Assembly: GCF_014635185.1 (NCBI RefSeq)
Contig: NZ_BMCM01000002.1
Location: forward strand, 597,288 to 661,287
From: Microbacterium murale
GTDB taxonomy: Bacteria; Actinomycetota; Actinomycetes; Actinomycetales; Microbacteriaceae
DNA: 64,000 nt
Direction of reading: 5' to 3'
The translations under genes and the position numbers were made by a program. Positions within the stretch are counted from its first letter, which is position 1. Each line of letters opens with the position of its first letter. Shown here in pieces: positions 19,431 through 33,545 of the stretch. The notes beneath the pieces were generated by a model that had not been told where the DNA came from, did no database searches, and worked only from the letters and a program-made list of their open reading frames with translations.

Positions 19431-19483
19431 AGGTGGCCCGAACGGCCGCATCGACCGCGCTGAAGCGACACGACGCGACACCC
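19431..19483. repeat. 53-bp dispersed palindrome, degenerate copy
   Basis: Aligned without gaps to the copy at 27002-27054 it matches at 36 of 53 positions by my count, including the AGGTG start, GCCGCATC and AAGCG cores. It is the most diverged member of the family and lies between the converging acetyltransferase and glmM genes. It could instead be chance similarity in GC-rich DNA, but length and alignment register agree exactly with the other copies. Confidence 0.5.
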
Positions 19484-19517
19484 GCGGGAGTGAGGCGCGA
19501 CACCCGCGGCGCGACGC

Positions 19518-19538
19518 GGGCGGCGACCGAAGCCGCCC
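19518..19538 (-). terminator. Possible hairpin terminator downstream of glmM
   Basis: GGGCGGC (19518-19524) pairs with GCCGCCC (19532-19538) around a 7-nt loop, 14 bases past the glmM stop. There is no T-tract, so intrinsic termination is uncertain. Confidence 0.35.
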
Positions 19539-19551
19539 CCATCGCCGGGCG

Positions 19552-20910
19552 TCAGAGCGCGAGGCGCTCCTTCACCACATCCGCAAGGCGCTGTGCGTAG
19601 GACTGTGCGGATTCAGCATCCGCCGCCTCGACCATCACGCGAACGAGCTGCTCCGTGCCGGACTTGCGCAGCAGCACGCGTCCGGTGTCACCGAGTTCCG
19701 CCTCGACAGCGGCGACAGCATCCTGCACGCCCTCGTCGTCGGCGCAGCGATCCTTGTCGACGTCGCGCACGTTGATGAGCACCTGCGGGAAGACCGTCAT
19801 GACCGACGCGAGCTCCGCGAGCGTCTTCTTCTGGCGCGCCATCTCGGCGACCAGGTGCAGGCCCGACAGCACGCCGTCGCCGGTCGTCGCGAACTCACTC
19901 ATGATCACGTGGCCGGACTGCTCGCCTCCCAGGGCGTAGCCGCCGGCGTTCATGTCTTCGAGCACGTAGCGGTCGCCGACAGCGGTCTGGCGCACGGTGA
20001 TGCCGTTGTCCTTCATCGCCTTGTGCAGTCCGAGGTTGCTCATGACCGTCGCGACGAGCGTGTTGTCGGTGAGGTGTCCGCGGTCCTTCATCGCCACCGC
20101 GAGGATGGCCATGATCTGGTCGCCATCGACGATGTTGCCGTCGGCGTCCACTGCGAGGCAGCGGTCCGCATCGCCGTCGTGGGCGATACCGACGTCGGCG
20201 CCGAGACGCACGACGGCCTCAGCGAGCTTGTCGAGATGCGTCGAGCCCACGCCGTCGTTGATGTTGGTGCCGTCGGGCTCTGCCCCCATGACGGTCACGT
20301 TCGCGCCGGCGTCGTTGAACGTCTCGGGCGAGACACCGGATGCTGCGCCATGCGCGCAGTCGAGAACGACGTGGATGCCGTCGAGCCGGTGCGGCAGCGA
20401 ACCCAGCAGGTGCAGTGCGTAGCGGTCCTCCGCATCGGAGAACCGCTCGATGCGTCCGACGGACCCGCCGGTGGGCAGAAGCTTCTCCCCCGCCATCGCG
20501 GCTTCGATGCGCTGCTCGACCTCATCGGGGAGCTTCACACCGCCGCGGGCGAAGATCTTGATCCCGTTGTCTGGTGCCGGGTTGTGCGACGCGGACACCA
20601 TGACGCCGAAGTCGGCATCGTGGTCGGCGACGAGGAACGCCAGGGCCGGAGTGGGGATAACGCCGGCGTCGAGGACGTCGACACCGGATGCTGCGAGGCC
20701 GGCAGACACTGCGGCCACGAGGAATTCACCGGAGATGCGCGGGTCGCGGGCGACGACTGCTGACAGTCGCTTGCCCTCGGCCTTGCGCGCCTCAGCGGTG
20801 CGGCCCTGGCCCAGGACGACAGCTGTCGCCTGGGCCAGGGTGAGCGCGAGGTCGGCGGTGAGGATGCCGTTGGCAAGTCCTCGCACGCCGTCCGTGCCGA
20901 AAAGCGGCAT
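19552..20910 (-). CDS. glmM: Phosphoglucosamine mutase
   Basis: 452 residues, normal family length. It interconverts glucosamine-6-phosphate and glucosamine-1-phosphate, feeding UDP-GlcNAc for peptidoglycan and for the neighbouring polysaccharide locus. The start [11 protein letters not shown], the phosphoserine loop [14 protein letters not shown] (S108), the metal loop [13 protein letters not shown] and the late sugar-phosphate loop [12 protein letters not shown] are all present. It lies 14 bp downstream of rpsI on the same strand, the order rplM-rpsI-glmM usual in Actinobacteria, so it is probably co-transcribed with the ribosomal protein genes. Confidence 0.97.
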
Positions 20911-20924
20911 CGGGGCTCTCGTGC

Positions 20925-21422
20925 TTAACGCTTCGAGTACTGAGGCGCCTTGCGGGCCTTCTTGAGACCAGCCTTCTTGCGCTCGATGACGCGAGCGTCA
21001 CGACGGAGGAAGCCGGCCTTCTTGAGGATCGCGCGGTTGTTCTCCTCATCGATGCCGTTCAGCGAACGGGCGATGCCGAGACGCAGTGCGCCGGCCTGAC
21101 CGGAGTCGCCGCCACCGGAGATGCGCGCGATGACGTCGTACGCACCCGTGAGGTTCAGCACCGTGAACGGGTCGGTGATCAGCTGCTGGTGCAGCTTGTT
21201 CGGGAAGTAGTCCTCGAGCGTACGGCCGTTGACCGTGATGACACCCGAGCCGGGAACCAGACGCACGCGGGCGATGGCCTGCTTGCGACGGCCGACGGCT
21301 GCGCCGGGAACGTTGAGAACGGGGCGGGGAGCCGCAGCCTCGGTCTCGACGGTCTCCGGGCTGGAGGTCGAGTAGCTCTGAGGGGTTTCGGCGGTTTCGG
21401 TGGTGTCCTGAGTATCAGCCAC
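20925..21422 (-). CDS. rpsI: 30S ribosomal protein S9
   Basis: S9 core begins about 36 residues in ([18 protein letters not shown]) and ends in the invariant C-terminal SKR, which reaches the ribosomal P site. Two GTG starts are possible. One at 21455 overlaps the rplM stop; the other, at 21422, has AAGGAC six bases upstream, so I choose 21422 (VADTQDTTE..., 165 codons). The acidic, Thr/Glu-rich N-terminal extension before the core is common in actinobacterial S9. It follows rplM directly, as in most bacteria. Confidence 0.96.
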
Positions 21423-21451
21423 GAGATTGTCCTTAGTAGTCTTAGCGGCGC

Positions 21452-21898
21452 TCACTGGGCGACCTGGTCGAGGGTGTACGTCGTGGGCTGCTGAGCGGCG
21501 TGCGGGTGCTCGGCACCGACGTACACCTTGAGCTTGGTCAGCTGCTGACGACCGAGGCTGTTCTTGGGGAGCATGCCGCGGACGGCCTTCTCGACAGCGC
21601 GGATCGGGTTCTTCGCCAGGAGCTCCTCGTAGGAGACCTTGGTGAGACCGCCCGGGTAGCCCGAGTGGCGGTAGGCCATCTTCTTCTGGAGCTTCTGACC
21701 CGTCATCGCGACCTTGTCGGCGTTGATGATGATGACGAAGTCACCCGAGTCGAGGTGGTTGGCGAAGGTGGCCTTGTGCTTGCCGCGCAGGAGCGCTGCG
21801 GCGTGCGAGGCGAGGCGACCGAGAACGACGTCGTTGGCGTCGATGACGACCCAGTCACGCTGGATCTGCCCGGCCTTCGGGGTGTATGTGCGCGTCAC
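21452..21898 (-). CDS. rplM: 50S ribosomal protein L13
   Basis: 148 residues with a GTG start at 21898. The start [20 protein letters not shown], the central [18 protein letters not shown] and the AVRGMLPKN motif are those of L13, an early-assembly 50S protein. It heads the rplM-rpsI-glmM run. The upstream 469 bp to the next gene hold the probable promoter and two 53-bp palindromes. Confidence 0.98.
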
Positions 21899-22092
21899 AA
21901 TAGTGCTGCTTTCTTGTTCGAACGGAGGAGTTCGTGAATCCCACTCCGGGGTGGTTCTTCGCTATTGCTCGGAACACGCCAGTGGAGGGCTCACGTTCGC
22001 GGCACTCTGCAGTCGAGTACCAAAGGGATAGCCTACGGCAATTTCCCCGGAAGTGGGAATCGGGGCGGGGTGGCGGGAGGGGCTGCAGCGGC

Positions 22093-22145
22093 AGGTGTCG
22101 CTTCGTGCCGCACGGCCCCCGGCGAAGCGACACATACGACCACCT
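22093..22145. repeat. 53-bp dispersed palindrome, copy A
   Basis: Starts AGGTGTCGCTTCGTGCCGC and ends CGACACATACGACCACCT; the arms pair imperfectly around a GC-rich centre. Copy B lies 84 bp to the right and matches at 50 of 53 positions by eye. Confidence 0.8.
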
Positions 22146-22176
22146 CCCCGTCGGATGCCGTTCCCACACCCCGCGC

Positions 22177-22229
22177 AGGTGTCGCTTCGTGCCGCACGGC
22201 ACCCTGCGAAGCGACACATGCGACCACCT
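22177..22229. repeat. 53-bp dispersed palindrome, copy B
   Basis: Same start AGGTGTCGCTTCGTGCCGC and end GCGACCACCT as copy A. The A-B pair has the same orientation and a 31-bp spacer. Confidence 0.8.
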
Positions 22230-22367
22230 CCCCCGCCGGCGAGACTCGGCTGGACGAGTCTCGTCGAACGCTGCTCTCGTCCTGCACATCCGCTGCGGCA
22301 TCCGCCTTGTCCACGAGACGTGGGTTTCAGCATCCGCGGTGTCGTCGCTCTGGGGCAACCTGTGCGC

Positions 22368-23366
22368 ATGCCTCCCACGCCGAACCCGCTTCCCGACTCG
22401 CTCGGCGGTCAGTTCTCGGTCCGCGACGCGGAGCGCCAGGGCGCGACCCGGCGTCGCATGCGGGCGAAAGACCTGACCATCCCGTTCCGGGGCACGCGCC
22501 GCACGGCGGAGTTCATCACGCAGCGTTCCATCGAGGCATCCCGCGACGATGCGGCGTACGCACACTTCCGGCGGGCACGGAAGGAACACGCGGACGACGC
22601 TCGCGTGTACAGCGAGATCATGCCACCAGGCAGCTTCTACTGCGCGGCCACTGCGGCGATCGTCGGGTATGCCCTTCCCTTGAAGACTCCCACTGCATTG
22701 GCTGTCGCGGTCTTCGCACCGCAGCGTGCTCCGCGCGCGAAAGGTGTCAAAGGTCGCAAGGTCGCTCCCCACCTCGTCACCATCACCGAAATCGACGGGC
22801 TTCGTATGACGACGCCGACGAGCACCTGGGCGATGCTCGCACGCGACTTGACGTTGCGCGAACTCGTTGAGATCGGAGATGCCATCGTGCAGGTGCCTCG
22901 TGATGACTTCGGCCGACAGCATCCGGAGCTCTCCCACGGCACGATCGCGGATCTCGCCGCTGAGGTGTCCTGCGGACCGCGACCGCCGTCGACGGGCAAA
23001 CTGCGCGAAGCGCTGGAACTGATCTGCGTCGGCAGCTCCTCCGTGCTTGAGACCGACTTCCGATTGGACGCCGCCTCGGCAGGGCTTCCCGAACCGGTGC
23101 TCGACATGGAGATTCGCGACGACCGACGACGATTGCTGGGAATATCGGAACTCGTCTACCCGCAGTATCGGATCGTCGTCGAGATCGAGGGCGACCACCA
23201 CCGAACTTCGCGTAAGCAATGGAACCGCGACCTCGACAAGTACAACGACTATGCCGAGGCCGGGTGGGAAGTCGTTCGACTGACGTCGCTGCACGTCAAC
23301 GGAAGCCGCCGAGATGGGGTCGGTCGAGTGGCCGCCGCACTCCGCCGCCGAGGCTGGAACGGTTGA
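22368..23366 (+). CDS. DUF559-like endonuclease-fold protein of unknown role
   Basis: 332 residues from the ATG at 22368; the frame stays open upstream through the palindromes, but that sequence is not protein-like. Residues 55-200 resemble AbiEi-type antitoxin/regulator proteins (PGSFYCAATAAIVGYALPL, then TSTWAMLARDL). The last 100 residues form a DUF559/Vsr-like PD-(D/E)XK fold: a metal-binding core in VVEIEGDHHR, preceded by LETDFRLD and followed by WNRDLDKYNDYAEAGWEVVR. Such stand-alone genes are frequent in Microbacteriaceae; their target is unknown. No cognate partner gene is adjacent. Confidence 0.75.
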   Translation: MPPTPNPLPDSLGGQFSVRDAERQGATRRRMRAKDLTIPFRGTRRTAEFITQRSIEASRDDAAYAHFRRARKEHADDARVYSEIMPPGSFYCAATAAIVGYALPLKTPTALAVAVFAPQRAPRAKGVKGRKVAPHLVTITEIDGLRMTTPTSTWAMLARDLTLRELVEIGDAIVQVPRDDFGRQHPELSHGTIADLAAEVSCGPRPPSTGKLREALELICVGSSSVLETDFRLDAASAGLPEPVLDMEIRDDRRRLLGISELVYPQYRIVVEIEGDHHRTSRKQWNRDLDKYNDYAEAGWEVVRLTSLHVNGSRRDGVGRVAAALRRRGWNG

Positions 23367-23385
23367 AACATGGCATGGTCGCAGC

Positions 23386-23438
23386 AGGTGGTCGCTTGTG
23401 CCGCGTCGCGCGTGCCAGAGCGGCATGTAGCGCCACCT
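23386..23438. repeat. 53-bp dispersed palindrome, copy C
   Basis: Begins AGGTGGTCGCTTGTGCCGC and ends GCGCCACCT. A single copy in the gap between the converging endonuclease and acyltransferase genes; the only one of the seven clear copies that is not paired. Confidence 0.75.
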
Positions 23439-23465
23439 GCCGCGCCGGCTCGGACGGGTGCGGGC

Positions 23466-25343
23466 CTACTCGGGGAACGGCACCCGCGGGGCGCGGCCGG
23501 TTGGCGCGCGCTCGAAGTCCTTCTCGGCCCGGACGCGGTCCTTCTCCACGCGCTCCAGCGCGGTCTCCACAGAATCGGCGAACACGTCTCCCCCGGCCTC
23601 GCCCGGGTGGATGTCGTCGCCTGCGAGCAGCTCGGTGTGGGGCGCGATGGCGCCCGACCAGTCCGCGACCCACACCGAGCGGTGACTGTCGGCGAAGGCG
23701 TCGAGATCGGCATTGACACCGGGGATCCAGTCGCGCGGTGCGTGCGCGTTGACGAGGATCAGGTTGCGGTCCTTCCCCGCCGCCTGCGACATCTGCTCGA
23801 GCACGCCCCAATCCACCGGACCGTTGGTGCCGAGCGCCACGACCACGTTCTCGCGCAGTTCGCCCTTCGAAGCCAGGTCGTTGAGGATGTCGGGCCCAGC
23901 CCAGATCGAGCGCGAGACCGCGGCATCGACCGTGATCCCGGGGAACTGCTCATACAGCGACGGCGCGGATGCGAGCATCACCGAGTCTCCGACGGCCGTG
24001 ATCTCGGTGCCAGCAGGGATGTCGATCTGCTCCGGATCGTCATCGGATGCCTCGGGCGCCGCCTTCGCAGCATCCTTCATGGCCTGCTCCCCCGCTGCGA
24101 CCGCCGCCTCGGCCGACGTCGCCTCTGGGGCGGTCACGATCGCCGCCGCCGTTCCGCCCACGGCGACGGCTCCGACCACCAGCGCAGTCACACCGGCCAG
24201 GCGCGCCGTCGGACGACCCGCGACACGCGACCACAGTGCGCGTCCCGCGCGCCGGAACCCGTACCGACGCAGCGGCTGCTCCACGAACCTGTACGACAGC
24301 GCCGCAGCCCCGACCGAGACGACGAGCGCCACCGCACCGATCGCCGCGGGAACCCCGGCCTCCGGCCCTGTCCCCTGCGTGCCGACCAGAGCCAGCACGA
24401 GCACCGGCCAATGCCACAGGTAGATGCCGTACGACCGCTCACCGATCCAGCGCAGCGGCGCGACATCGAGACCGCGTCCGAGCCACGAGCCGGGCCAGGT
24501 TCCGGCGAAGATCGTGAGCGCCGTCCCGAGAGACGCGAGCACGAGCACACCGGTGATGGAAGCATCCTCCGGCGACAGTGCGGCGACCAGTACAGCACCC
24601 AGTCCGACGAGTCCGGCGAGCAGCGATCCGACCTGCGCACCGCGCCGCAGCATCCATGCCCTTTCCGGCATGTTCACGGTGGCGAGCGCGAGAGCGATCC
24701 CGAGCAGCAGCCCGAACGCGTGCGAATCGGTGCCGAAGTACGCCCGCGTGACGTCGCCTTCGGCGACCAGCATCGCCATCCACCACACCGACCCACCCGC
24801 AGCGACGAACATGAGCGCCGCGCGCGTCCACCGCCCCGGAACAAGCAGCACGAGAGGAAGCAACAGTGGCCACAGCACGTAGAACTGCTCTTCGACGGCC
24901 AGCGACCAGACGTTGCGGAACAGCTCGGGCGCCGTCGCCGTGAAGTAGTCGCTGCCTCCGGCGACTGCGAGCCAGTTGTAACTGAAGGTGGCAGCACCGA
25001 GCACCTGCCTTCCGATGCCGACGAGCACGTCGCCACCCAGCATCCACGCCGCCGTCGCACACACCGTGATCACCACGGCCAACGCCGGCAGCAGCCGGCG
25101 CGCGCGCCGCCGCCAGAAATCGATCAGCCGACGCGGCGATCCGAGCCGTCCGAGGCGCGATGGACGCAGCAGGAGCGACGTGATCAGGAAACCGCTGATC
25201 ACGAAGAAGACATCGACGCCGACGAACCCCGACCGCACCGGCGATGACGGAAAGAGGTGATACGCCAGCACGAGGATGACCGCCACCGCACGCAGACCGT
25301 CCAGTCCCGCGAAACGTCGAGGAGCAGAGTGAAGGAGCGTCAT
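23466..25343 (-). CDS. OafA/YrhL-type membrane acyltransferase with SGNH domain
   Basis: 625 residues. Residues 1-370 are the acyltransferase-3 membrane domain (about 10 helices; FAGLDGLRAVAVILVLAYHL with the conserved histidine, and GVDVFFVISGFLIT). A Glu/Asp-rich linker follows, then a periplasmic-side SGNH hydrolase-like domain from about 470: the GDSVML serine block and the DDIHPGEAG aspartate/histidine block. This architecture O-acetylates peptidoglycan or surface polysaccharides, moving acetyl groups across the membrane. It may act on the polysaccharide made by the locus to the left; that link is inference. Confidence 0.93.
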   Translation of the reverse strand: MTLLHSAPRRFAGLDGLRAVAVILVLAYHLFPSSPVRSGFVGVDVFFVISGFLITSLLLRPSRLGRLGSPRRLIDFWRRRARRLLPALAVVITVCATAAWMLGGDVLVGIGRQVLGAATFSYNWLAVAGGSDYFTATAPELFRNVWSLAVEEQFYVLWPLLLPLVLLVPGRWTRAALMFVAAGGSVWWMAMLVAEGDVTRAYFGTDSHAFGLLLGIALALATVNMPERAWMLRRGAQVGSLLAGLVGLGAVLVAALSPEDASITGVLVLASLGTALTIFAGTWPGSWLGRGLDVAPLRWIGERSYGIYLWHWPVLVLALVGTQGTGPEAGVPAAIGAVALVVSVGAAALSYRFVEQPLRRYGFRRAGRALWSRVAGRPTARLAGVTALVVGAVAVGGTAAAIVTAPEATSAEAAVAAGEQAMKDAAKAAPEASDDDPEQIDIPAGTEITAVGDSVMLASAPSLYEQFPGITVDAAVSRSIWAGPDILNDLASKGELRENVVVALGTNGPVDWGVLEQMSQAAGKDRNLILVNAHAPRDWIPGVNADLDAFADSHRSVWVADWSGAIAPHTELLAGDDIHPGEAGGDVFADSVETALERVEKDRVRAEKDFERAPTGRAPRVPFPE

Positions 25344-25396
25344 GATGAGGAGGCGTTTCGGCTCGCGGCCGAAGGTTCCAGTCTAAGCTGGCCATC

Positions 25397-26248
25397 GTGC
25401 GAATACGGCTTGACATCGCCTATGACGGCACCCAGTTCCGCGGGTGGGCGAAGCAACCCCGGTTGCGCACGGTGCAGGGCACGCTCGAGGCGGCACTCGC
25501 ACGCATCATCGGCTCCGAGGTGCAGTTCGTCGTCGCGGGGCGAACGGATGCCGGCGTGCATGCCGCCGACCAGGTCGCACACGTCGACCTCGATGACGAG
25601 CAATGGTCGCGCATCCTCACCCGGCACGGACGCAGTTCGCACGACCCCGCCGGCTCGATCGCCGGACGCATCCGCGGAGTGCTCGGCGCCTACTCGGACG
25701 TCACCGTGCGTCGCTCGTCGATCGCGCCAGAGGGGTTCGACGCCCGCTTCTCCGCCGTCTGGCGTCGGTACCGCTACCGGCTCGCCGATGAGGTCGCCGG
25801 CTACGATCCGGCCAGGCGCCTCGACACCACCAGCATCCGCGGTGAGCTCGACGTTCGGGCGATGGATACTGCCGCACAGACCCTGATCGGCCTGCATGAC
25901 TTCGCCGCCTACTGCAAACCCCGCGAGGGGGCGACGACGATCCGCACGCTCCTCGATTACCGGTGGCATCGCGACGCCGACGGGGTGCTGATCGCCGAGG
26001 TGAAGGCCGACGCGTTCTGCCACAGCATGGTGCGCGCGCTGGTCGGAGCGTGCGTGGCCGTCGGAGAGCAGCGCCTCGACGTCAGCGACCTCGTCGTGCT
26101 GCGCGATGCGCTCGAGCGCACGAGCGAGTTCAAGGTGCTCGCGGCACGCGGTCTCACGCTGACCGAGGTCGGCTACCCCGCCGACGACCTGCTCGCCGTG
26201 CGGGCCGAGCAGACTCGGGCACGGCGAGACAGCGAGAACTCAGGCTGA
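25397..26248 (+). CDS. truA: tRNA pseudouridine synthase A
   Basis: 283 residues, GTG start at 25397. It isomerises uridines at positions 38-40 in the anticodon arm of many tRNAs. The N-terminal LDIAYDGTQFRGWAKQP and the catalytic aspartate D51 in AGRTDAGVHA identify the family; the RVRYR-type segment is WRRYRYRLAD and the C-terminal FCHSMVRALVGACV is conserved. A 30-residue insertion between 70 and 100 (SRILTRHGRSSHDPAGSIAG) is longer than in E. coli TruA, as often in Actinobacteria. It sits alone between an acyltransferase and an exonuclease-like gene. Confidence 0.96.
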   Translation: MRIRLDIAYDGTQFRGWAKQPRLRTVQGTLEAALARIIGSEVQFVVAGRTDAGVHAADQVAHVDLDDEQWSRILTRHGRSSHDPAGSIAGRIRGVLGAYSDVTVRRSSIAPEGFDARFSAVWRRYRYRLADEVAGYDPARRLDTTSIRGELDVRAMDTAAQTLIGLHDFAAYCKPREGATTIRTLLDYRWHRDADGVLIAEVKADAFCHSMVRALVGACVAVGEQRLDVSDLVVLRDALERTSEFKVLAARGLTLTEVGYPADDLLAVRAEQTRARRDSENSG

Positions 26249-26291
26249 TTCGACACCTCGATCACAGGCGAACGCAGTAGCGTTGGCAGAG

Positions 26292-26960
26292 ATGAAGGTG
26301 ATCTCTTATAACCTGCGCAAGCATCGTGCTGCCACCGAGCTCAAGGAGCTCGTCACAGAGCACGACCCCGATGTCCTGTGCCTGCAGGAGTGCGACGTCG
26401 AAGCGCTTCCCGACGAGATCGCGGGACTCGCGCTGGCGGATGCCACGCAGGGCAATCGCCTCGGACTGGCGCTCTATTACCGGATGAACACCTTCCGCCT
26501 GCTGGAGATGCGCACGTTCGGGCTGAAGAAGTCGCTGCACGATCGAGTGCTGAAGCCCGCCCATGAACGCGTCCTGGGCGCTCGGTTGCAGGACATCGAC
26601 ATCGGTCGTGAGCTGATCGTGGCATCCTTCCACGCCGCGCCGCTCACCGCGCTGAACTCTCTGCGACGCAACCAGATCCGCGCGGCGCTCACCGAGCTCG
26701 AGTCGATGGGACGCGGAGTTCCTGTGCTCATGGTCGGCGACTACAACTACCCCGTGTTCAAGGAGAACCTCGGCCAGACCGTCCGCGACCACGGCTACAC
26801 CCTGACGCTCAGCGATGACCGCACGTACACCCGCTACCGCGTGTTCAAGGGGCACTACGACTTCGCGACGTCGAACGGGTTCACGATCGACAGCATCCAG
26901 ACCCTGCCGCAGCGTTCGAGCGATCATCGCCCGATCCTGATCACGGCCGCCGTCGACTGA
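26292..26960 (+). CDS. Endonuclease/exonuclease/phosphatase (EEP) family protein
   Basis: 222 residues from ATG 26292 (MKVISYNLRKHR); a TTG three codons upstream is an alternative. EEP-fold motifs in order: SYNLRKH, the metal glutamate in LCLQECD, MVGDYNYP with the catalytic Asp-Asn, and the C-terminal SDHRPILI with the conserved Asp-His. Known members hydrolyse DNA, RNA, phosphoinositides or nucleotides, so the substrate is open. No signal peptide, so it acts in the cytoplasm. Confidence 0.88.
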   Translation: MKVISYNLRKHRAATELKELVTEHDPDVLCLQECDVEALPDEIAGLALADATQGNRLGLALYYRMNTFRLLEMRTFGLKKSLHDRVLKPAHERVLGARLQDIDIGRELIVASFHAAPLTALNSLRRNQIRAALTELESMGRGVPVLMVGDYNYPVFKENLGQTVRDHGYTLTLSDDRTYTRYRVFKGHYDFATSNGFTIDSIQTLPQRSSDHRPILITAAVD

Positions 26961-27001
26961 CGCCGGGGTGGCACGCCGCCGCATACCGTGCGCCTCGCGC
27001 G

Positions 27002-27054
27002 AGGTGTCACTAAGTGCCGCATCCAACGCCACCAAGCGGCACAAAGCGCCACCT
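27002..27054. repeat. 53-bp dispersed palindrome, copy D
   Basis: Begins AGGTGTCACTAAGTGCCGC and ends AAAGCGCCACCT. The following copy E starts 73 bp further right and matches at 50 of 53 positions by eye. Confidence 0.8.
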
Positions 27055-27074
27055 CCGGCAAGGCTCCCCGCGCG

Positions 27075-27127
27075 AGGTGTCACTAAGTGCCGCATCCAAC
27101 GCCACGAAGCGACACAAGGCGCCACCT
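27075..27127. repeat. 53-bp dispersed palindrome, copy E
   Basis: Same start AGGTGTCACTAAGTGCCGC as copy D, with the end GGCGCCACCT. The D-E pair fills the gap between the converging exonuclease-like gene and metI, 20 bp before the metI stop. Confidence 0.8.
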
Positions 27128-27147
27128 CGCACCCCAGGACGACCCGC

Positions 27148-27825
27148 CTACCGCCGCAGCACCCGCTGCGCGAGCCAGTTGCCGAAGATCTGACCCACCT
27201 GCACGATCACGATGATGATCGCGACCGTGACCCAGGTCGCCTGCTGATCGAACTGGTTGTAGCCGTAGATGATCGCGAAGTTTCCGAGTCCGCCGCCGCC
27301 GATGTAGCCGGCCATGGCCGACATGTCGACCACCGCGATGAACATGAACGTGTAGCCGAGGATCAGCGGCGCCAGCGCCTCGGGGATCACCACGCCGAAC
27401 AGGATCGACAGCCGCTTCGCACCGATCGCGAGCGCAGCCTCGACGACTCCAGGGTCGACCGCGACGAGGTTCTGCTCGACCACGCGCCCGATCACGACCG
27501 CGGCCATGATCGTCATCGGCACGATCGCCGCCTCGGTGCCGAGCGTGGTGCCTGCGACGAGCTTGGTCACGGGCCCGACCGCGGTGAGGAAGATGATGAA
27601 CGGAATCGGTCGGATGACGTTGATCACCAGGTTCATCACGTTGAAGACGATCCGGTTGCCGAACAGGTTCCCCGGCCGTGTGGCATAGAGCACCGCACCG
27701 ATCAGCAGTCCGGCGATGCCGCCGATCACGAGCGTGACGGCGACCATGTAGATGGTCTCCTGGATCGACTGCAGCAGCACCGGCGTCAGCGAATCCCAGT
27801 TGGCGAGCGGATGGATGCCGGTCAT
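27148..27825 (-). CDS. metI: Methionine ABC transporter permease MetI
   Basis: 225 residues, five or six membrane helices, normal MetI size. The EAA loop is EAALAIGAKRLSILFGVVIPEA and the GGGGLGNFAIIYGYNQF stretch near the C-terminus is typical of MetI. It forms the channel of the MetNIQ importer for D/L-methionine. The ATG overlaps the metN stop by 4 bp; the order metQ-metN-metI on the minus strand is a complete system. Confidence 0.95.
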   Translation of the reverse strand: MTGIHPLANWDSLTPVLLQSIQETIYMVAVTLVIGGIAGLLIGAVLYATRPGNLFGNRIVFNVMNLVINVIRPIPFIIFLTAVGPVTKLVAGTTLGTEAAIVPMTIMAAVVIGRVVEQNLVAVDPGVVEAALAIGAKRLSILFGVVIPEALAPLILGYTFMFIAVVDMSAMAGYIGGGGLGNFAIIYGYNQFDQQATWVTVAIIIVIVQVGQIFGNWLAQRVLRR

Positions 27826-28886
27826 GAGACGCCCTCCGATCCGGATGCCTGAACCGTGGCGCTCGAACCGCGCAGCACCGACACCTTCGTGCGCACCGCC
27901 AATTCCCCGACCGCTTCGGCGACAGCATCCGCCCCCGCCTGCAGACGGTACGTGAGGGTGCCGAGCTGGCGACCGCGGATGTCGGTGACCCCGCCGAAGA
28001 CGACCGCGCGACGCACGCCGTGCTTCTCGAACACCTCGTCGATGTCCTCGCTGGTGAACTCGTTGACGTCGACGCTCACGAGCGTCCCGCCGCCGACGAG
28101 CAGAGAATCCAGTGTGTCGCCCGCCGGCACGCCCTGCGTGACGGCGGCGACGAAGCGCTCGGTGAGCGCCGCACGCGGATGCGCGAACACGCGGTACGTG
28201 TCGCCGCTGTCGACCACGCGGCCGCCGTCCATCACGACGACCTGATCGCACAGCTCGTGCACGACCGAGATCTGGTGGGTGATGACGACGATCGTGATGC
28301 CGAGGCGGCGGTTGATCTCCTTCAGCAACGCGAGCACCTCGCCGGTGGTCTGCGGGTCGAGCGCGCTGGTGGCCTCATCCGCGAGCAGCAGCTCCGGGTT
28401 CGCGGCGATCGCGCGGGCGATGCCGACGCGCTGCTTCTGTCCGCCCGAGAGTGCGCGCGGATACCGGCCGGCCTTGTCGCCGATCCCGACGAAATCGAGC
28501 AGTTCCGCGACGCGAGGCGCGATGTCCGCACGCTTCCAGCCGGCAACCTTCAACGGGTACGCGACGTTGCCGCGGACCGTGCGCGAATTGAAGAGGTTGA
28601 ACTGCTGGAAGATCATGCCGATGCGTGCGCGCAGGCCCCGCAGCTCGGTCTCCGACGCTTTTCCGACGTCGACGCCGAGTACGTTCACGCTGCCGCCAGT
28701 GGGCTTCTCCAGCCCGTTGATCAGCCGGACGAGCGTGGACTTTCCCGCCCCGGAGTAGCCGATGACACCGACGATCGAGCCGCGCTCGACCTCGAGGTCG
28801 ACCTCTTCCAGAGCATCGACGACGGGCCCCCGCCGCGTTCCGGGGAACGCTTTGGAGACCCGATCGAACGAGATGATTCCGGTCAC
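27822..28886 (-). CDS. metN: Methionine ABC transporter ATP-binding protein MetN
   Basis: 354 residues. Walker A GYSGAGKST at 43-51, signature LSGGQ at 146-150, Walker B LLLADE at 167-171, H-loop VITHQ. Residues from about 265 form the C-terminal NIL (ACT-like) domain, which in E. coli MetN binds methionine and inhibits transport from inside. It dimerises and drives MetI. It lies 3 bp from metQ and overlaps metI. Confidence 0.96.
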   Translation of the reverse strand: MTGIISFDRVSKAFPGTRRGPVVDALEEVDLEVERGSIVGVIGYSGAGKSTLVRLINGLEKPTGGSVNVLGVDVGKASETELRGLRARIGMIFQQFNLFNSRTVRGNVAYPLKVAGWKRADIAPRVAELLDFVGIGDKAGRYPRALSGGQKQRVGIARAIAANPELLLADEATSALDPQTTGEVLALLKEINRRLGITIVVITHQISVVHELCDQVVVMDGGRVVDSGDTYRVFAHPRAALTERFVAAVTQGVPAGDTLDSLLVGGGTLVSVDVNEFTSEDIDEVFEKHGVRRAVVFGGVTDIRGRQLGTLTYRLQAGADAVAEAVGELAVRTKVSVLRGSSATVQASGSEGVS

Positions 28887-28889
28887 TGC

Positions 28890-29810
28890 TTACTTCGCGG
28901 CCTTGAGCTTGTCTTCGAGGCCGGTGAGCTCCTTCTGCAGGTCAGCGGCGGTCCAGTCGGCCTTGAACTGCAGGTTGCCCTGGTTCAGCTCGGTGACGGC
29001 CTCTTCGACCTCGGGCGAGTGGTACGCCTCGATGAGCTTCTCCCAGCGCGGGTCGTCCTTGTTCTCGTCCTTCACGACGAAGGCGTTGATGTACGGCGCG
29101 AGCTCGGGGTTGTCGAGGTCTTCCTTGAAGATGATCAGGTCGTCGCCGAGCCCGCCCTTCTGGGCCTGGGTGTTGTTGACGATCGCTGCCTGCGCGCTGC
29201 CGTCCTTGAGCGCGGTGACCGTCTGGTTCGTGTCGACCGGAAGGAGCTCGACCTTGCTGGAGGTGATGTCGGCCTCGGTCGAGAAGGCGTTGCCGCCGTC
29301 CTCGAGCTCGAGCAGCCCGGCACGCTGCAGGTTCAGCAGGGCGCGGGCGAGGTTCGTCGGGTTGTTCGGCAGCGCGACGGTCGCACCATCCGGGAGGTCG
29401 GCGACGTCGGTGTACTCCTCGGAGTACAGCGCCAGGGGGTACACGGCGGTCGCGCCGACCGGAACGAGCGTGCCGCCGCTGTTGACGTTGAAGTCGGAGA
29501 GGAAGATGAGGTGCTGGAACAGGTTCACGTCGAGTTCGCCGTCCTGCACACCCTGGTTCAGCTGCACACCATCGGTGATGGTGCGCACCTCGAGCTCGAT
29601 GCCCTCATCGGCCAGCTTGTCCTTGAGGATCGTCCAGTGCGCTTCGGTGCCGTCGTCCGCCCCGAGCACGATCTTCGTCTCGTCGGCGGCGGCGTCACCA
29701 CCGGCGGTGTCTGTGCCACCCGCGCACGCTGCCATCGACAGGGTCAGCGCGCCGGCTGCCAGCACGCCGAGGGCGGAAAGGATCTTGTTCTTCGCACGGG
29801 AGTTGTTCAC
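28890..29810 (-). CDS. metQ: Methionine-binding lipoprotein MetQ
   Basis: 306 residues from the GTG at 29810. The signal peptide (NNSRAKNKILSALGVLAAGA) ends in a lipobox LSMAAC, so the mature protein is a lipoprotein anchored outside the membrane. The NlpA domain follows, with DDGTEAHW, DVNLFQHL and LPNNPTNLARAL motifs binding methionine. A longer in-frame start 21 codons upstream would place charged residues before the signal peptide and is less likely. I see no SAM riboswitch in the 87-bp upstream gap. Confidence 0.95.
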   Translation of the reverse strand: MNNSRAKNKILSALGVLAAGALTLSMAACAGGTDTAGGDAAADETKIVLGADDGTEAHWTILKDKLADEGIELEVRTITDGVQLNQGVQDGELDVNLFQHLIFLSDFNVNSGGTLVPVGATAVYPLALYSEEYTDVADLPDGATVALPNNPTNLARALLNLQRAGLLELEDGGNAFSTEADITSSKVELLPVDTNQTVTALKDGSAQAAIVNNTQAQKGGLGDDLIIFKEDLDNPELAPYINAFVVKDENKDDPRWEKLIEAYHSPEVEEAVTELNQGNLQFKADWTAADLQKELTGLEDKLKAAK

Positions 29811-29897
29811 GAGAATGAGTGAATCACGCACCTGGCGCATCACCGATTCGGACGGTAACGGCGCGTAACGCACGCGGGCGCCCCATACGCTGGGCGA

Positions 29898-31211
29898 GTG
29901 ACCCTCAGCCTGCTGGAAGAAGAAGCCCTCGGCTTCGTCCGCGACCTCATCCGCATCGACAGCGTCAACACGGGCGACCTCAAAACGATCGGCGACGGCG
30001 AGACGCGGGCGGCACGGTTCGTGCAGTCGCTGCTGGAGGAGGTGGGCATCGAGACGTCATTCGTCGAGCCCGTTGCGGGGCGCGGGAGCGTGATCGCCCG
30101 CCTTCGCGGGACGGATCCGGATGCCGGCGCGCTGATCGTGCACGCGCACCTCGATGTGGTGCCGGTGGATGCTGCGGACTGGACTCACCCGCCCTTCGGC
30201 GCCGAAATCGCAGACGGCCTGCTCTACGGCCGCGGCGCCGTCGACATGAAGAACTACGCGGGGGTGATCCTGGCAGTGGCGCGGCACTTCGCGCGTTCCG
30301 GCATCCGTCCTCGGCGCGATCTGATCTTCGCCTTCCTCGCCGACGAGGAGAGCGGCGGGGTGTGGGGTGCGTCGTGGCTGGTCGACAACCGGCCGGAGCT
30401 GTTCGCCGGCGCGACCGAGGCGATCAGCGAGGTCGGCGGATTCTCGGTGCCGCTCGTCGAAGGACGTCGCGCGTATCTGCTCGCGACGGCCGAGAAGGGC
30501 GTCGGCGGGCTGAGGCTCACTGCGCGCGGCGAGGCGGGGCATGCGTCCAGGCCGCTGCCGAGTGACCCTGTGCCGCAGCTCGCCGGGGCGGTCGCTCGGA
30601 TCGGCGCGCACCGGTTCCCGGTCGTGCGCACTCCGGCGCTGGCACGATTTCTCGAGGTGTTCGGGGCGGCACGAGGCGTCACGTTCACAGACGAGAACCT
30701 GGATGCTGAGCTGGAGGATCTCGGATTCGTCGGGCGAGTGATCGCCGCCGCGGCGCGGAACACCGCGGCGCCGACCGTGCTGCGCGCGGGAGACAAGAGC
30801 AACATCATCCCCGGGAGCGCAGAGGCGATCGTCGACTATCGGGCGCTGCCCGACGGTGAGGACGACCTGCTCGCCGAGGTCGCTCGCCTGGCCGGAGAGA
30901 CCGTCGAGGTCGAGAGCCTGCGGTCGATGCATCCGATCGCCTCTCCCATCGACGGCCCGTTCATCGACGCCATCTCCGCGGCGTTGACGGCCGAAGACCC
31001 GGACGGCGTCGTGGTGCCTTACCTGCTTCCGGCATCCACCGACAACAAGCACTTCGCACGTCTCGGCGTGCACGGATACGGGTTCGTGCCGCTGCGCGTG
31101 CCAGACGACTTCGACGTCTACGGACAGTTCCACTCGGCGGACGAGTGCGTGCCGGTGGAGAGCCTGTACTTCAGCGCTCGCGTGACCGCGGGGATCTTCA
31201 CGACGGCGTAG
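29898..31211 (+). CDS. M20-family metallopeptidase/deacylase
   Basis: 437 residues with a GTG start. Zinc-binding motifs of the M20 clan appear in order: VHAHLDVVPV, GRGAVDMKN, the catalytic LADEESGG, and a C-terminal histidine in FGVHGY/GQFHSADE. An inserted dimerisation domain spans about 195-310 (RGEAGHASRPLP). Members include dipeptidases, acetylornithine deacetylase and succinyl-DAP desuccinylase; this sequence fits the general ArgE/DapE/CPG2 group without a diagnostic residue set. It diverges from metQ, but no operon partner is visible. Confidence 0.9.
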   Translation: MTLSLLEEEALGFVRDLIRIDSVNTGDLKTIGDGETRAARFVQSLLEEVGIETSFVEPVAGRGSVIARLRGTDPDAGALIVHAHLDVVPVDAADWTHPPFGAEIADGLLYGRGAVDMKNYAGVILAVARHFARSGIRPRRDLIFAFLADEESGGVWGASWLVDNRPELFAGATEAISEVGGFSVPLVEGRRAYLLATAEKGVGGLRLTARGEAGHASRPLPSDPVPQLAGAVARIGAHRFPVVRTPALARFLEVFGAARGVTFTDENLDAELEDLGFVGRVIAAAARNTAAPTVLRAGDKSNIIPGSAEAIVDYRALPDGEDDLLAEVARLAGETVEVESLRSMHPIASPIDGPFIDAISAALTAEDPDGVVVPYLLPASTDNKHFARLGVHGYGFVPLRVPDDFDVYGQFHSADECVPVESLYFSARVTAGIFTTA

Positions 31212-31255
31212 CTCGCCCCCGCCGGCCCGTGCGCGCCCGGCCGGTCCCGCCCGCG

Positions 31256-31308
31256 AGGTGTCGCAATGTGCCGCATCCCACGCCGCCACACGACACAAAG
31301 AACCACCT
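31256..31308. repeat. 53-bp dispersed palindrome, copy F
   Basis: Begins AGGTGTCGCAATGTGCCGC and ends AAAGAACCACCT. It lies 44 bp past the M20 peptidase stop. Confidence 0.75.
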
Positions 31309-31339
31309 CCCGAATCGGCCCGCCACCGAGCCGACCCGC

Positions 31340-31392
31340 AGGTGTCGCGATGTGCCGCTTCTCGAGGCCTCACACGGCAACAGGCGCCACCT
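31340..31392. repeat. 53-bp dispersed palindrome, copy G
   Basis: Begins AGGTGTCGCGATGTGCCGC and ends CAGGCGCCACCT. It starts 84 bp after the start of copy F, the same spacing as copies A-B, and lies upstream of the membrane protein gene at 31449. Confidence 0.75.
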
Positions 31393-31448
31393 CTCGGAAA
31401 CGCAGCACACCATTGCCCCGCACCTTGGCACGTCGATACGTTGAGGGC

Positions 31449-33545
31449 ATGAGCAGCGCCGAGGCAACGGAATCGACTCACTCGAGAACCCCCGCGATCC
31501 TCGGCTTCGCCCGCCGGATTCCGGCGACGCTCATCTTCATCGCGGTGATCATCATCGCCGGCATCGCGGGGCAAGGGCTCTGGCGGCCTCTCGCCGGTAC
31601 TCCCCTGTTCGACGTCGTCGCGTACGGGCTGCCCGCGCTCGAGCAGGGCCGGTGGTGGACGCCGATCAGCGGCACGTTCTTCGTCATTCAGCCGTGGGTG
31701 TACATCCCGACAATCCTCGGCTTCTGGGGCATGGCGTACCTCGAGTACCGTCGGGGCTGGCGGGTCGCGCTGCTGTATTACTGGTTCGGGCAGCTGTTCG
31801 CGGTCTTGGCATCCGCACTGCTGCTCATCGGCGGGCGCGCCCTGCCGTGGCCGTGGGCGCAGCAGCTGGCGCAGACGCTCGACGTCGGCGCCTCGGGCGG
31901 CACCATGGCGTGCATCGCCGCGGCGATCGGACTCTTCGCCGCACCGTGGCGGCAGCGGGCGTGGTTCGTGGTGCTCGGCTTCGCGGCGATCAGTCTGCTG
32001 TACCTCGGCACCCTCGCCGACGTGGAGCATGCGCTCGCCATCCTGCTCGTGCTGTCGGTCGACCGGTCCCTCCGCGTGCAGCGCACGACCGTGCACGAGC
32101 AGCGGATGCTCGCGGTGAGCATCGTCGTCGCCCTCGGGGTGATCCAGCTGATCGTGATGCTCATTCCGACGAACGGCCCCTTCGGAGCGACCGACCTCTG
32201 GCTCGAGACCGCGCTGCCGGACGTGCTGTTCGACACCGCCGTCATCCTCGTGATCGCGATGGGGTTGTGGCGCGGGCGCCGCTGGGCCTGGATCATCGCG
32301 ATCGTCCTCGCGGCGATCAACATCGTCATCGGAGCGCTCGCCGTCCTCGTGCGCGTCGCGATCGTGCTGTCGATCGAGGAGGATGCCGCGGGCTCCGTGC
32401 AGGGAGACCTCGACGTCACGGCATCCGCCGGGATCCTGTGGCTCGCGTACCTGATCTTCCTCATCGTCACCCGTGCGGCCTTCCGCGTATGGCGGCGCGC
32501 CCGCAGCCTCGGCGGGACTCCGGTGAGCGTCGACGAGGTGAAGCAGATGATCAAGAAGGACGGCGGCGGGACGCTGTCGTGGATGACCACGTGGGACAAC
32601 ATGGAGTACCTGCGCACGTCGTCGGGCGGGATCGTGCCGTTCCAATTGCGCTCGGGCGCGGCGATCGCACTCGCCGATCCGCTCGGACCAGCGGAGGGGC
32701 ACGCCGATTCGGTGCTGGAGTTCATCCAGGCCGCCGAGGAGCACGCCGTCACACCGTGCTTCTTCAGCGCATCCGCACGCACGCGCGATCAGCTTCCTGA
32801 AGGATGGCAGGCGCTCACCGTCGCGGATGACACGATCATCGACCTCGCAGGACTCACCTTCCAGGGCAAGGCGTGGGCGCGGGTGCGCCAGTCGTTCAGC
32901 CGCGCCGAACGCGAGGGGATGACGTTCCGCCTGACCACCCTCGCCGACGTCAGCTGGGGCACCCGCCAGCAGCTGAAGGCGATCTCGGAATCGTGGGTCG
33001 GTGACAAGGGCCTGCCCGAGATGCGCTTCACCCTCGGAACACTGCACGAGGCTGAAGACCCCGAGGTGCGCCTGGCCCTCGCGATCTCTCCGGAGGGCGA
33101 CGTCGACGGACTGCTCAGCTGGCTTCCGGTCTACGGCGCCGGCGGACGGATCGTGGGATGGACGCTCGACCTGATGCGACGTCGAGACGGAGGCTTCGGT
33201 GCGGTGATGGAGTTCCTGATCGGCTCGTCCGCGAAGGCGTTCTCCGAGGAGGGCGCCGAGATCCTGTCGCTGTCGGGCGCACCGCTCGCGCACGAATCTG
33301 ACGTGGACGAGGGCGGGATCGCGTCGCTGCTGTCGAGGATGGGCGGGATGCTGGAGCCGGTCTACGGATTCCGCTCGCTGCACCAGTTCAAGAAGAAGTT
33401 CAACCCCCGCTACGAGCCGATCTACTTGCTCTACCGCGACGAGGGCGACCTCGCCCGCATCGGCGGCGGTCTGACCAGGGCGTTCCTGCCGGATGCGACG
33501 CTGCGTCAGTTCACGGCCGCGGGGGTCGACCTGATCCGCAGCTGA
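31449..33545 (+). CDS. Membrane protein: rhomboid-like N-terminal domain fused to DUF2156 (phosphatidylglycerol lysyltransferase C-terminal domain)
   Basis: 698 residues from ATG 31449. Residues 20-340 hold about nine membrane helices. The C-terminal 330 residues are a DUF2156/LPG-synthase domain (MEYLRTSSGGIVPFQLRSG, FSRAEREGMTFRL, HQFKKKFNPRYEPIYLLY), as in MprF, which adds an aminoacyl group to phosphatidylglycerol and lowers surface charge. The N-terminal part has rhomboid-like features: EQGRWWTPISGTFF, a YWFGQ helix, GASGG (GxSG serine motif) and a later histidine in DVEHALAILL. No lysyl-tRNA synthetase domain is present. The proteolytic activity of the first half is unproven. Confidence 0.85.
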   Translation: MSSAEATESTHSRTPAILGFARRIPATLIFIAVIIIAGIAGQGLWRPLAGTPLFDVVAYGLPALEQGRWWTPISGTFFVIQPWVYIPTILGFWGMAYLEYRRGWRVALLYYWFGQLFAVLASALLLIGGRALPWPWAQQLAQTLDVGASGGTMACIAAAIGLFAAPWRQRAWFVVLGFAAISLLYLGTLADVEHALAILLVLSVDRSLRVQRTTVHEQRMLAVSIVVALGVIQLIVMLIPTNGPFGATDLWLETALPDVLFDTAVILVIAMGLWRGRRWAWIIAIVLAAINIVIGALAVLVRVAIVLSIEEDAAGSVQGDLDVTASAGILWLAYLIFLIVTRAAFRVWRRARSLGGTPVSVDEVKQMIKKDGGGTLSWMTTWDNMEYLRTSSGGIVPFQLRSGAAIALADPLGPAEGHADSVLEFIQAAEEHAVTPCFFSASARTRDQLPEGWQALTVADDTIIDLAGLTFQGKAWARVRQSFSRAEREGMTFRLTTLADVSWGTRQQLKAISESWVGDKGLPEMRFTLGTLHEAEDPEVRLALAISPEGDVDGLLSWLPVYGAGGRIVGWTLDLMRRRDGGFGAVMEFLIGSSAKAFSEEGAEILSLSGAPLAHESDVDEGGIASLLSRMGGMLEPVYGFRSLHQFKKKFNPRYEPIYLLYRDEGDLARIGGGLTRAFLPDATLRQFTAAGVDLIRS

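Follow-up and report, generated by a model that had tools for sequence, protein, structure and literature searches.

A Vsr-like nuclease gene of Microbacterium murale set between dispersed 53-bp palindromes: a probable enzyme-site pair with whole-turn site spacing

Among described systems, two come closest to the locus reported here. In the REPtron, a single gene for a HuH tyrosine transposase (TnpA-REP, or RAYT, REP-associated tyrosine transposase) lies among its cognate repetitive extragenic palindromic (REP) elements, which are marked at one end by a conserved GTAG (or CGTC) tetranucleotide (PMC8266576, PMC3733652) and number about six hundred in Escherichia coli K12 (PMC8266576). The EDxHD homing endonuclease I-Bth0305I is described as dimerising on a target that measures nearly 60 bp (PMC3943268). 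Restriction endonucleases of the MTES_1575 type are reported to have a Vsr fold (PMC3710099), and the SOS response of Caulobacter lacking a methyltransferase reportedly requires VsrA, a DUF559-domain protein (PMC12907096). The accessible text of these last two papers mentions no bracketing palindromes for either family, and among open-access papers, a collection outside which preprints and most subscription papers fall, we found no report tying DUF559 or MTES_1575 nucleases to palindromic repeats. Here we describe a stretch of 64,000 nucleotides from Microbacterium murale (the window; contig NZ_BMCM01000002.1, positions 597,288 to 661,287) in which a gene for a Vsr-like nuclease stands between copies of a 53-bp palindrome. 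We argue that the palindromes are probably the cognate DNA sites of this nuclease, a pair resembling a REPtron built on an EDxHD/Vsr-type enzyme.

The window holds eight copies of the palindrome. Copies A (22093..22145) and B (22177..22229), both on the forward strand, form a doublet upstream of the nuclease gene (22368..23366, forward strand, 332 aa, P0001), and copy C (23386..23438, reverse strand) begins about 20 bp past its stop codon. Two further forward-strand doublets, D (27002..27054) with E (27075..27127) in a convergent gap and F (31256..31308) with G (31340..31392), follow downstream, and an outlying copy, w0, lies on the reverse strand at 19431..19483. All eight fit a common 53-bp frame, which bears out the positions and the length given in an initial annotation of this DNA, together with its start spacings of 84, 73 and 84 bp for the three doublets and the 50/53 likeness within A-B and within D-E. 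The copy at 19431, which that annotation had called degenerate, is a genuine member of the family: it scores 44.3 bits with a symmetric matrix trained on 23 copies that included the seven clear window copies and not this one, and E 5.5e-11 with a profile. With the same matrix the eight copies score 44-59 bits; elsewhere in the window the highest score is 12.9 bits (34898), and in five shuffles it is 0.3, so that the reported absence of the family from 32-64 kb of the window is upheld. A search for the palindrome ends with the length left free between 48 and 64 bp gave eight matches in the window, at seven places of which one matches on both strands, where 100 shuffles predict 0.23. Two statements of the annotation need correction. 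The copies do not all share one orientation, since by the asymmetric T6/C48 positions those at 23386 and 19431 are opposite to the others; and the gaps are intergenic and mostly convergent or at 3' ends, as stated, except that the A/B doublet sits in a divergent gap upstream of both rplM and the nuclease gene.

In the whole genome (3.9 Mb in 18 contigs, rated 100% complete, closest by TruA to Microbacterium among named relatives, the window being the end of contig C2) there are at least 30 copies at 16 sites, namely 10 doublets, 2 triplets and 4 singles, and the members found with free length all measure 53 bp. This count comes from a sequence-only profile made from 27 copies, which found these again and three more; as it scored only 150 out of 8109 first-look candidates, weak copies may have escaped it. 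By genes predicted with a simple in-house script, 8 of the sites lie in convergent gaps, 7 in tandem gaps and 1 in a divergent gap, where all gaps of at least 30 bp in the stretches read, these 16 included, number 20, 41 and 22, respectively, and many copies start 20-60 bp past a stop codon. Copies at one site are more alike (mean identity 46.4/53, 16 pairs) than copies at different sites (35.5/53, 419 pairs). In a region of 168 kb containing the nuclease gene (C2:461301-628679), picked after inspection of the data, lie 21 of the 30 copies and 11 of the 16 sites, and the remaining copies are on C1 (4), C6 (4) and C7 (1). The clustering looks as if spread had been mainly local.

The link between nuclease and palindromes came from a comparison of 111 genes flanking the elements. 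One family recurs beside them in four species, the most of any, with homologs 45-56% identical in Microbacterium sp. SA39 (L095), G008 (L084) and G013 (L080), the last with an element array on one side only; the runners-up were proteins with about 30% likeness, found at three loci, and a few pairs at two. The window protein, whose start codon was set by homolog comparison, carries a MTES_1575/DUF559-type domain in its C-terminal third. It matches REase_MTES_1575 (PF18741) at E 1.1e-4 and DUF559 (PF04480) weakly, below both curated Pfam cut-offs (22.7 of 38.2 and 14 of 20.6 bits), and among 56 homologs 47 match the former and 30 the latter (E up to 0.01). Residues S225, E228, R232, E272, H278 and D288 are invariant, and position 261 is E or D, in all 56 aligned homologs. 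In comparison with G302 the gene has a ratio of nonsynonymous to synonymous substitution rates of 0.24, and the AlphaFold2 model is confident (predicted local distance difference test 96.0, predicted template modelling score 0.91). Searched against solved sequences, the family profile had four matches: 3hrl (E 0.003), the ‘mobile intron protein’ 3r3p (E 0.011), which we take to be I-Bth0305I, and two of PvuRts1I (E 0.024 and 0.025). No transposase domain was found in the gene, and searches for relatives outside chromosomes returned one weak phage record and three Arthrobacter plasmid records, while exact peptide patterns had no match in viral contigs.

Relatives of the nuclease gene are bracketed as well. 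The homolog loci were 30 from a search of the genus and all 28 matches in the 12 high-copy genomes that lack a strong homolog. A box-based detector gave 41 matches in 17 of 29 loci (82 kb; L173-L201), two of them inside the gene (L183, L197), against 48 in 1.56 Mb of TruA loci. As such a detector presumes the motif, the flanks were also compared motif-free, with up to 400 bp upstream aligned to 400 bp downstream of each gene and scored against mismatched flank pairs, which include related loci (largest score 121). In this test 46 of 54 loci exceeded the 95th percentile of mismatched flanks (22) and 22 of 54 the 99th (35), two of the 58 loci having been left out for short open reading frames and two for failing the flank limit; of 838 other genes, 21 scored above 22 and 2 above 35, and the top scorer among them reads, by eye, as a DDE transposase between repeats. 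Across the order, a family profile finds a homolog at E 1e-25 in 101 of 149 genomes, and 24 of 28 loci lie above their own 95th percentile (20), or 22 of 26 without L235 and L236, which belong also to the genus test, the bracketing segments being unlike each other. For 67 bracketed loci, the median distance from the upstream segment to the start codon is 102 bp, and that from the stop codon to the downstream segment is 14 bp; the mean palindrome score of the segments is 25.8 compared with 13.0 for random ones. The pairing is well supported at the sequence level, most of the relatives examined being bracketed by palindromes private to their locus.

The own genome has eight other, Pfam-listed DUF559 genes, a list from which the window protein is absent. 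None of the eight lies beside dispersed copies. Five of them (L045, L047, L048, L049 and L050), with different N-termini, are each flanked by repeats of their own and score 38-55, against 14-18 for the other three; the pieces of these repeats that were searched for were not found in the other own-genome stretches examined.

Palindrome and protein also diverge together. Similarity between palindromes tracks the identity of the nuclease proteins (Mantel r 0.486, reached in 0 of 2000 permutations), a relation visible only above 60% protein identity (40 pairs). Copy number is associated with the gene as well: a strong homolog, defined by a limit of about E 1e-58 or better that was chosen post hoc, is present in 32 of 44 genomes with at least five pattern matches and in 47 of 252 others (odds ratio 11.6, Fisher 3e-12, kinship ignored).

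Copies that lie close together keep a spacing of whole helical turns. Start-to-start distances in this genome are 84 bp in eleven cases and 73, 74 and 94 bp once each, and the spacers of different doublets are, by eye, mostly unrelated. Arrays and pairs of relatives show 73 bp (G074), mostly 84 bp (G101, G013), 94 or 95 bp (G099) and 63 bp (G111, G208). In a hand-compiled, non-exhaustive list of 24 sets from 23 genomes, 86 of 102 spacings below 130 bp are 63, 73/74, 84 or 94/95 bp, that is, 6-9 turns. With distinct spacings counted per set (n=43), the resultant at 10.5 bp is 0.82 with a mean phase of 0.05 bp, which none of 20000 random sets reached, and with each spacing value counted once (n=18) the phase remains significant (p 3.6e-4). 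The test covered spacings below 130 bp; about half of the longer ones seen are out of phase (143, 144, 154, 164, 235, 245 and 341 bp), others being in phase or within 1 bp of it (146, 167, 168 and 210 bp), and some of the longer spacings may skip an undetected copy.

The same register is found within the palindrome. Each copy has two boxes of the TGTCGC/TGCCGC type on its left arm, with starts 10 bp apart, and two inverted boxes on its right arm, again 10 bp apart; 15 bp separates the inner boxes, so that the four boxes follow at 10, 21 and 10 bp. The 30 copies start with AGGTG (one with GGGTG) and end with CACCT, and of 25 distinct copies 21 have a mismatch between positions 6 and 48. Standard pairs fill 66.0% of the cells across 20 arm positions; displacing the partner by 1-3 columns lowers this to 30-45%, which argues that the palindrome is real. 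Shuffling right arms among copies gives 69.2% pairing, with 500 of 500 shuffles equal to or above the observed value. The arms of one copy are therefore no more complementary than the fixed columns dictate, which fits two half-sites read as duplex and speaks against a selected single-strand hairpin of the kind recognised by TnpA-REP; judged by this pattern, the palindrome looks like a double-stranded protein site. In G010 (L075:1871-2337), a tandem array of the element with an 84-bp period (28 codons) lies inside a predicted reading frame of 833 aa (252-2753), and arrays can thus occur in coding sequence.

Outside this genome the family is patchy. The profile matches 13 of 58 genomes, the own one included, all within Microbacterium, and none of 23 genomes of other genera. 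A general box pattern (up to two mismatches) has matches in 162 of 296 genomes of the genus and none in the other 134; 230 genomes have 0-2 matches, where a reversed control has 0-5 each, and counts of 18 to 46 are reached in the own genome and in G013, G074, G099, G101, G111, G144, G200, G211, G302 and G309. The inner box is common across species, and the outer box and the ends depend on the species. G059 and G099 (L180, L181) have an outer-box variant, GGTCCC/GGGCCC, with eight detected copies around the G099 nuclease gene. Turnover is evident between relatives at the same gaps, a comparison that the initial annotation had proposed. In G302, whose main aligned stretches are 87-94% identical at the DNA level, elements occupy the gaps that they occupy in the own genome, and the F/G gap holds four mutually alike copies; in Microbacterium sp. 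CH12i the genes bordering the D/E doublet adjoin end to end with no elements, and the gap is about 30 bp (aligned protein end to next stop codon) instead of 187 bp.

How far the likeness to a REPtron extends can now be stated. A single enzyme gene with its cognate palindromes around it, dispersed intergenic copies, doublets, and co-diversification of enzyme and palindrome are common to both. The REP/BIME-like (bacterial interspersed mosaic element) reading of the initial annotation accordingly holds for the dispersed, intergenic placement, mostly in convergent or 3' gaps, for the doublets and for the patchiness between species, and fails for the enzyme and the end tag: the enzyme is of the Vsr/PD-(D/E)XK type and not a HuH transposase, no GTAG tag was seen in the 30 copies read (flanks of 27 inspected), the boxes stand in helical register without covariation of the arms, and copies number in the tens, not hundreds. 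An unseen REP-associated transposase had also been suggested. No Y1_Tnp/TnpA-REP/RAYT domain (PF01797) was found in this genome, the only one searched besides 14 control genomes, of which 5 were positive, and a RAYT was rejected as partner enzyme; the associated gene is the Vsr-like nuclease inside the window, which the annotation had not connected with the palindromes. In its conserved E, D/E, E, H and D residues the family appears to resemble I-Bth0305I and Vsr: E228, E/D261, H278 and D288, kept throughout the alignment, may correspond to the positions of the EDxHD motif. The nuclease domain has the distant profile match to 3r3p, and a 53-bp two-fold site resembles the nearly 60-bp target on which a dimer sits. 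Unlike that of an EDxHD homing endonuclease, the chromosomal gene does not split its own site, most loci having whole similar segments on both flanks, and the sites have multiplied without the gene. Miniature inverted-repeat transposable elements (MITEs) and the ends of insertion sequences likewise place a gene between near-identical terminal sequences, with small non-coding copies elsewhere, but here both ends are whole two-fold palindromes, and neither a transposase domain nor a target-site duplication was seen.

These comparisons show a family of nuclease genes, most of which stand between segments that are private to the locus, diverge along with the protein and in many cases are palindromic. 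They also show that in this genus a single palindrome of this kind has multiplied, with whole-turn spacing between close copies. Binding, cutting and movement by the nuclease are what we infer from this. The nuclease would bind the palindrome as a two-fold dimer, as I-Bth0305I does on its target, and would nick or cut at or near it; recombination repair would then carry copies of the palindrome, alone or in phased pairs, to further gaps, chiefly close by, and would also homogenise neighbours. The pair would work like TnpA-REP and REP with an unrelated enzyme. More broadly, and with less confidence than we place in the pair itself, we suggest that a widespread selfish class may exist in the Actinomycetales, made up of Vsr/EDxHD-type nuclease genes, several per genome, each with its own pair of palindromic sites and a recognition that diversifies with the palindrome, and that Microbacterium was perhaps seeded with whole-turn site arrays by nuclease-provoked recombination.

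Several observations weigh against this interpretation. Among the 44 high-copy genomes, 12 have no strong homolog; they carry distant ones, and 22 of 26 such loci score above the limit of the flank comparison, the segments there having a different sequence. Conversely, of the 79 genomes in which a strong homolog is present, 47 stay below five pattern matches. In G034 (L053-L061, L207), rich in dispersed elements, the palindrome around the nearest homolog (L207) differs from the dispersed one, and in the two genomes from the genus of G038 the exact palindrome pattern occurs only beside the nuclease (2 and 1 places), so that spread of the palindrome is not general. Phylum-wide, 5 of 18 long DUF559 proteins (230-420 aa) are bracketed (scores above 22) and none of 8 short ones, in a test from which 3 of 29 loci were left out for short flanks and in which L287, counted among the five, is the same gene as that at L255 of the order-wide set. 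Of the 67 bracketing segments, 27 are palindromic beyond the 99th percentile of the control. The likeness of the nuclease to solved nucleases is weak, and it is unusual for a classical homing endonuclease to have intact cognate sites next to its gene. As for movement, loss in CH12i instead of gain in the own genome is possible, and no target-site duplication was identified, the breakpoints being blurred both in the D/E gap comparison (L115) and in the rplM gaps (11 loci).

The chief rival is an operator system, in which the protein would autoregulate through its N-terminal part on the flanking palindromes, perhaps looping its own gene, the dispersed copies would be a regulon or roadblocks, and the nuclease part would act only on foreign DNA. 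The position of the upstream palindrome relative to the start codon at the 67 loci would suit it, as would helical phasing, in keeping with a cooperative binding protein, an N-terminal part whose short helices and strands in the model may be read as helix-turn-helix-like, and the confinement of exact copies to the gene in the genus of G038. However, dispersed copies are mostly at 3' ends, with a single divergent site, autoregulation needs no second copy behind the stop codon, and copies have multiplied and turned over between close species; on balance we consider an operator system unlikely, though deserving of serious attention. Much less probable are nucleoid or chromosome-segregation sites of a housekeeping protein. 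Whole-turn arrays and the concentration of copies in one 168-kb region could be accommodated by such sites, yet the lack of a pattern match in 134 of 296 genomes of a single genus, the species-dependent outer box and the tie to an accessory nuclease gene speak against them.

Readings that make the palindrome an RNA-level or a classical REP element fare worse still. Bidirectional terminators or stabilisers of mRNA at gene ends would explain why many copies start shortly past a stop codon, and some of the six copies folded as RNA look good (z-scores -1.6 to -5.5). Despite this, the hairpin/RNA reading was rejected because the arms do not covary; moreover, a terminator scan of 21800-31500 made no call at the copies, Rfam returned no family at gathering score for them (only four sub-threshold microRNA models), and whole-turn spacing and the nuclease tie would be left unexplained, which makes this a very remote candidate. 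Lowest of all we place a classical REP/BIME whose TnpA-REP is lacking from the assembly or escaped detection there. Intergenic palindromes in doublets, patchy in the genus, and an assembly in 18 contigs would allow for it, but it is largely refuted by the lack of PF01797 in a genome rated complete, by the missing tag and arm covariation, and by the fact that the palindromes bracket another gene family.

If the nuclease-palindrome pair holds, a nuclease family of unknown function would gain a concrete and testable candidate substrate, often readable from the flanks of each gene, and REP-like repeats would have a second, unrelated enzyme type. Should the palindromes be binding sites, they would offer many natural nuclease-site pairs from which DNA recognition could be learned, and whole-turn spacing would be a sign, seldom available from sequence, that a nucleoprotein complex assembles.

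The rplM gap in which the nuclease gene lies (window 21898-25400; L092-L103) is 181-220 bp long in 5 of 11 loci and about 1-2 kb in the other six. The nuclease locus of SA39 sits in one of these long gaps, of 1756 bp, and the five others hold 1-2 kb of other sequence, so that the gap looks like a hotspot of gene gain in Microbacterium. Finally, a record titled Planococcus sp. APC 4015 (L109, JASDDH010000020.1) encodes a TruA 72% identical to that of the window and falls among the Microbacterium matches; it is probably a mislabelled genome.

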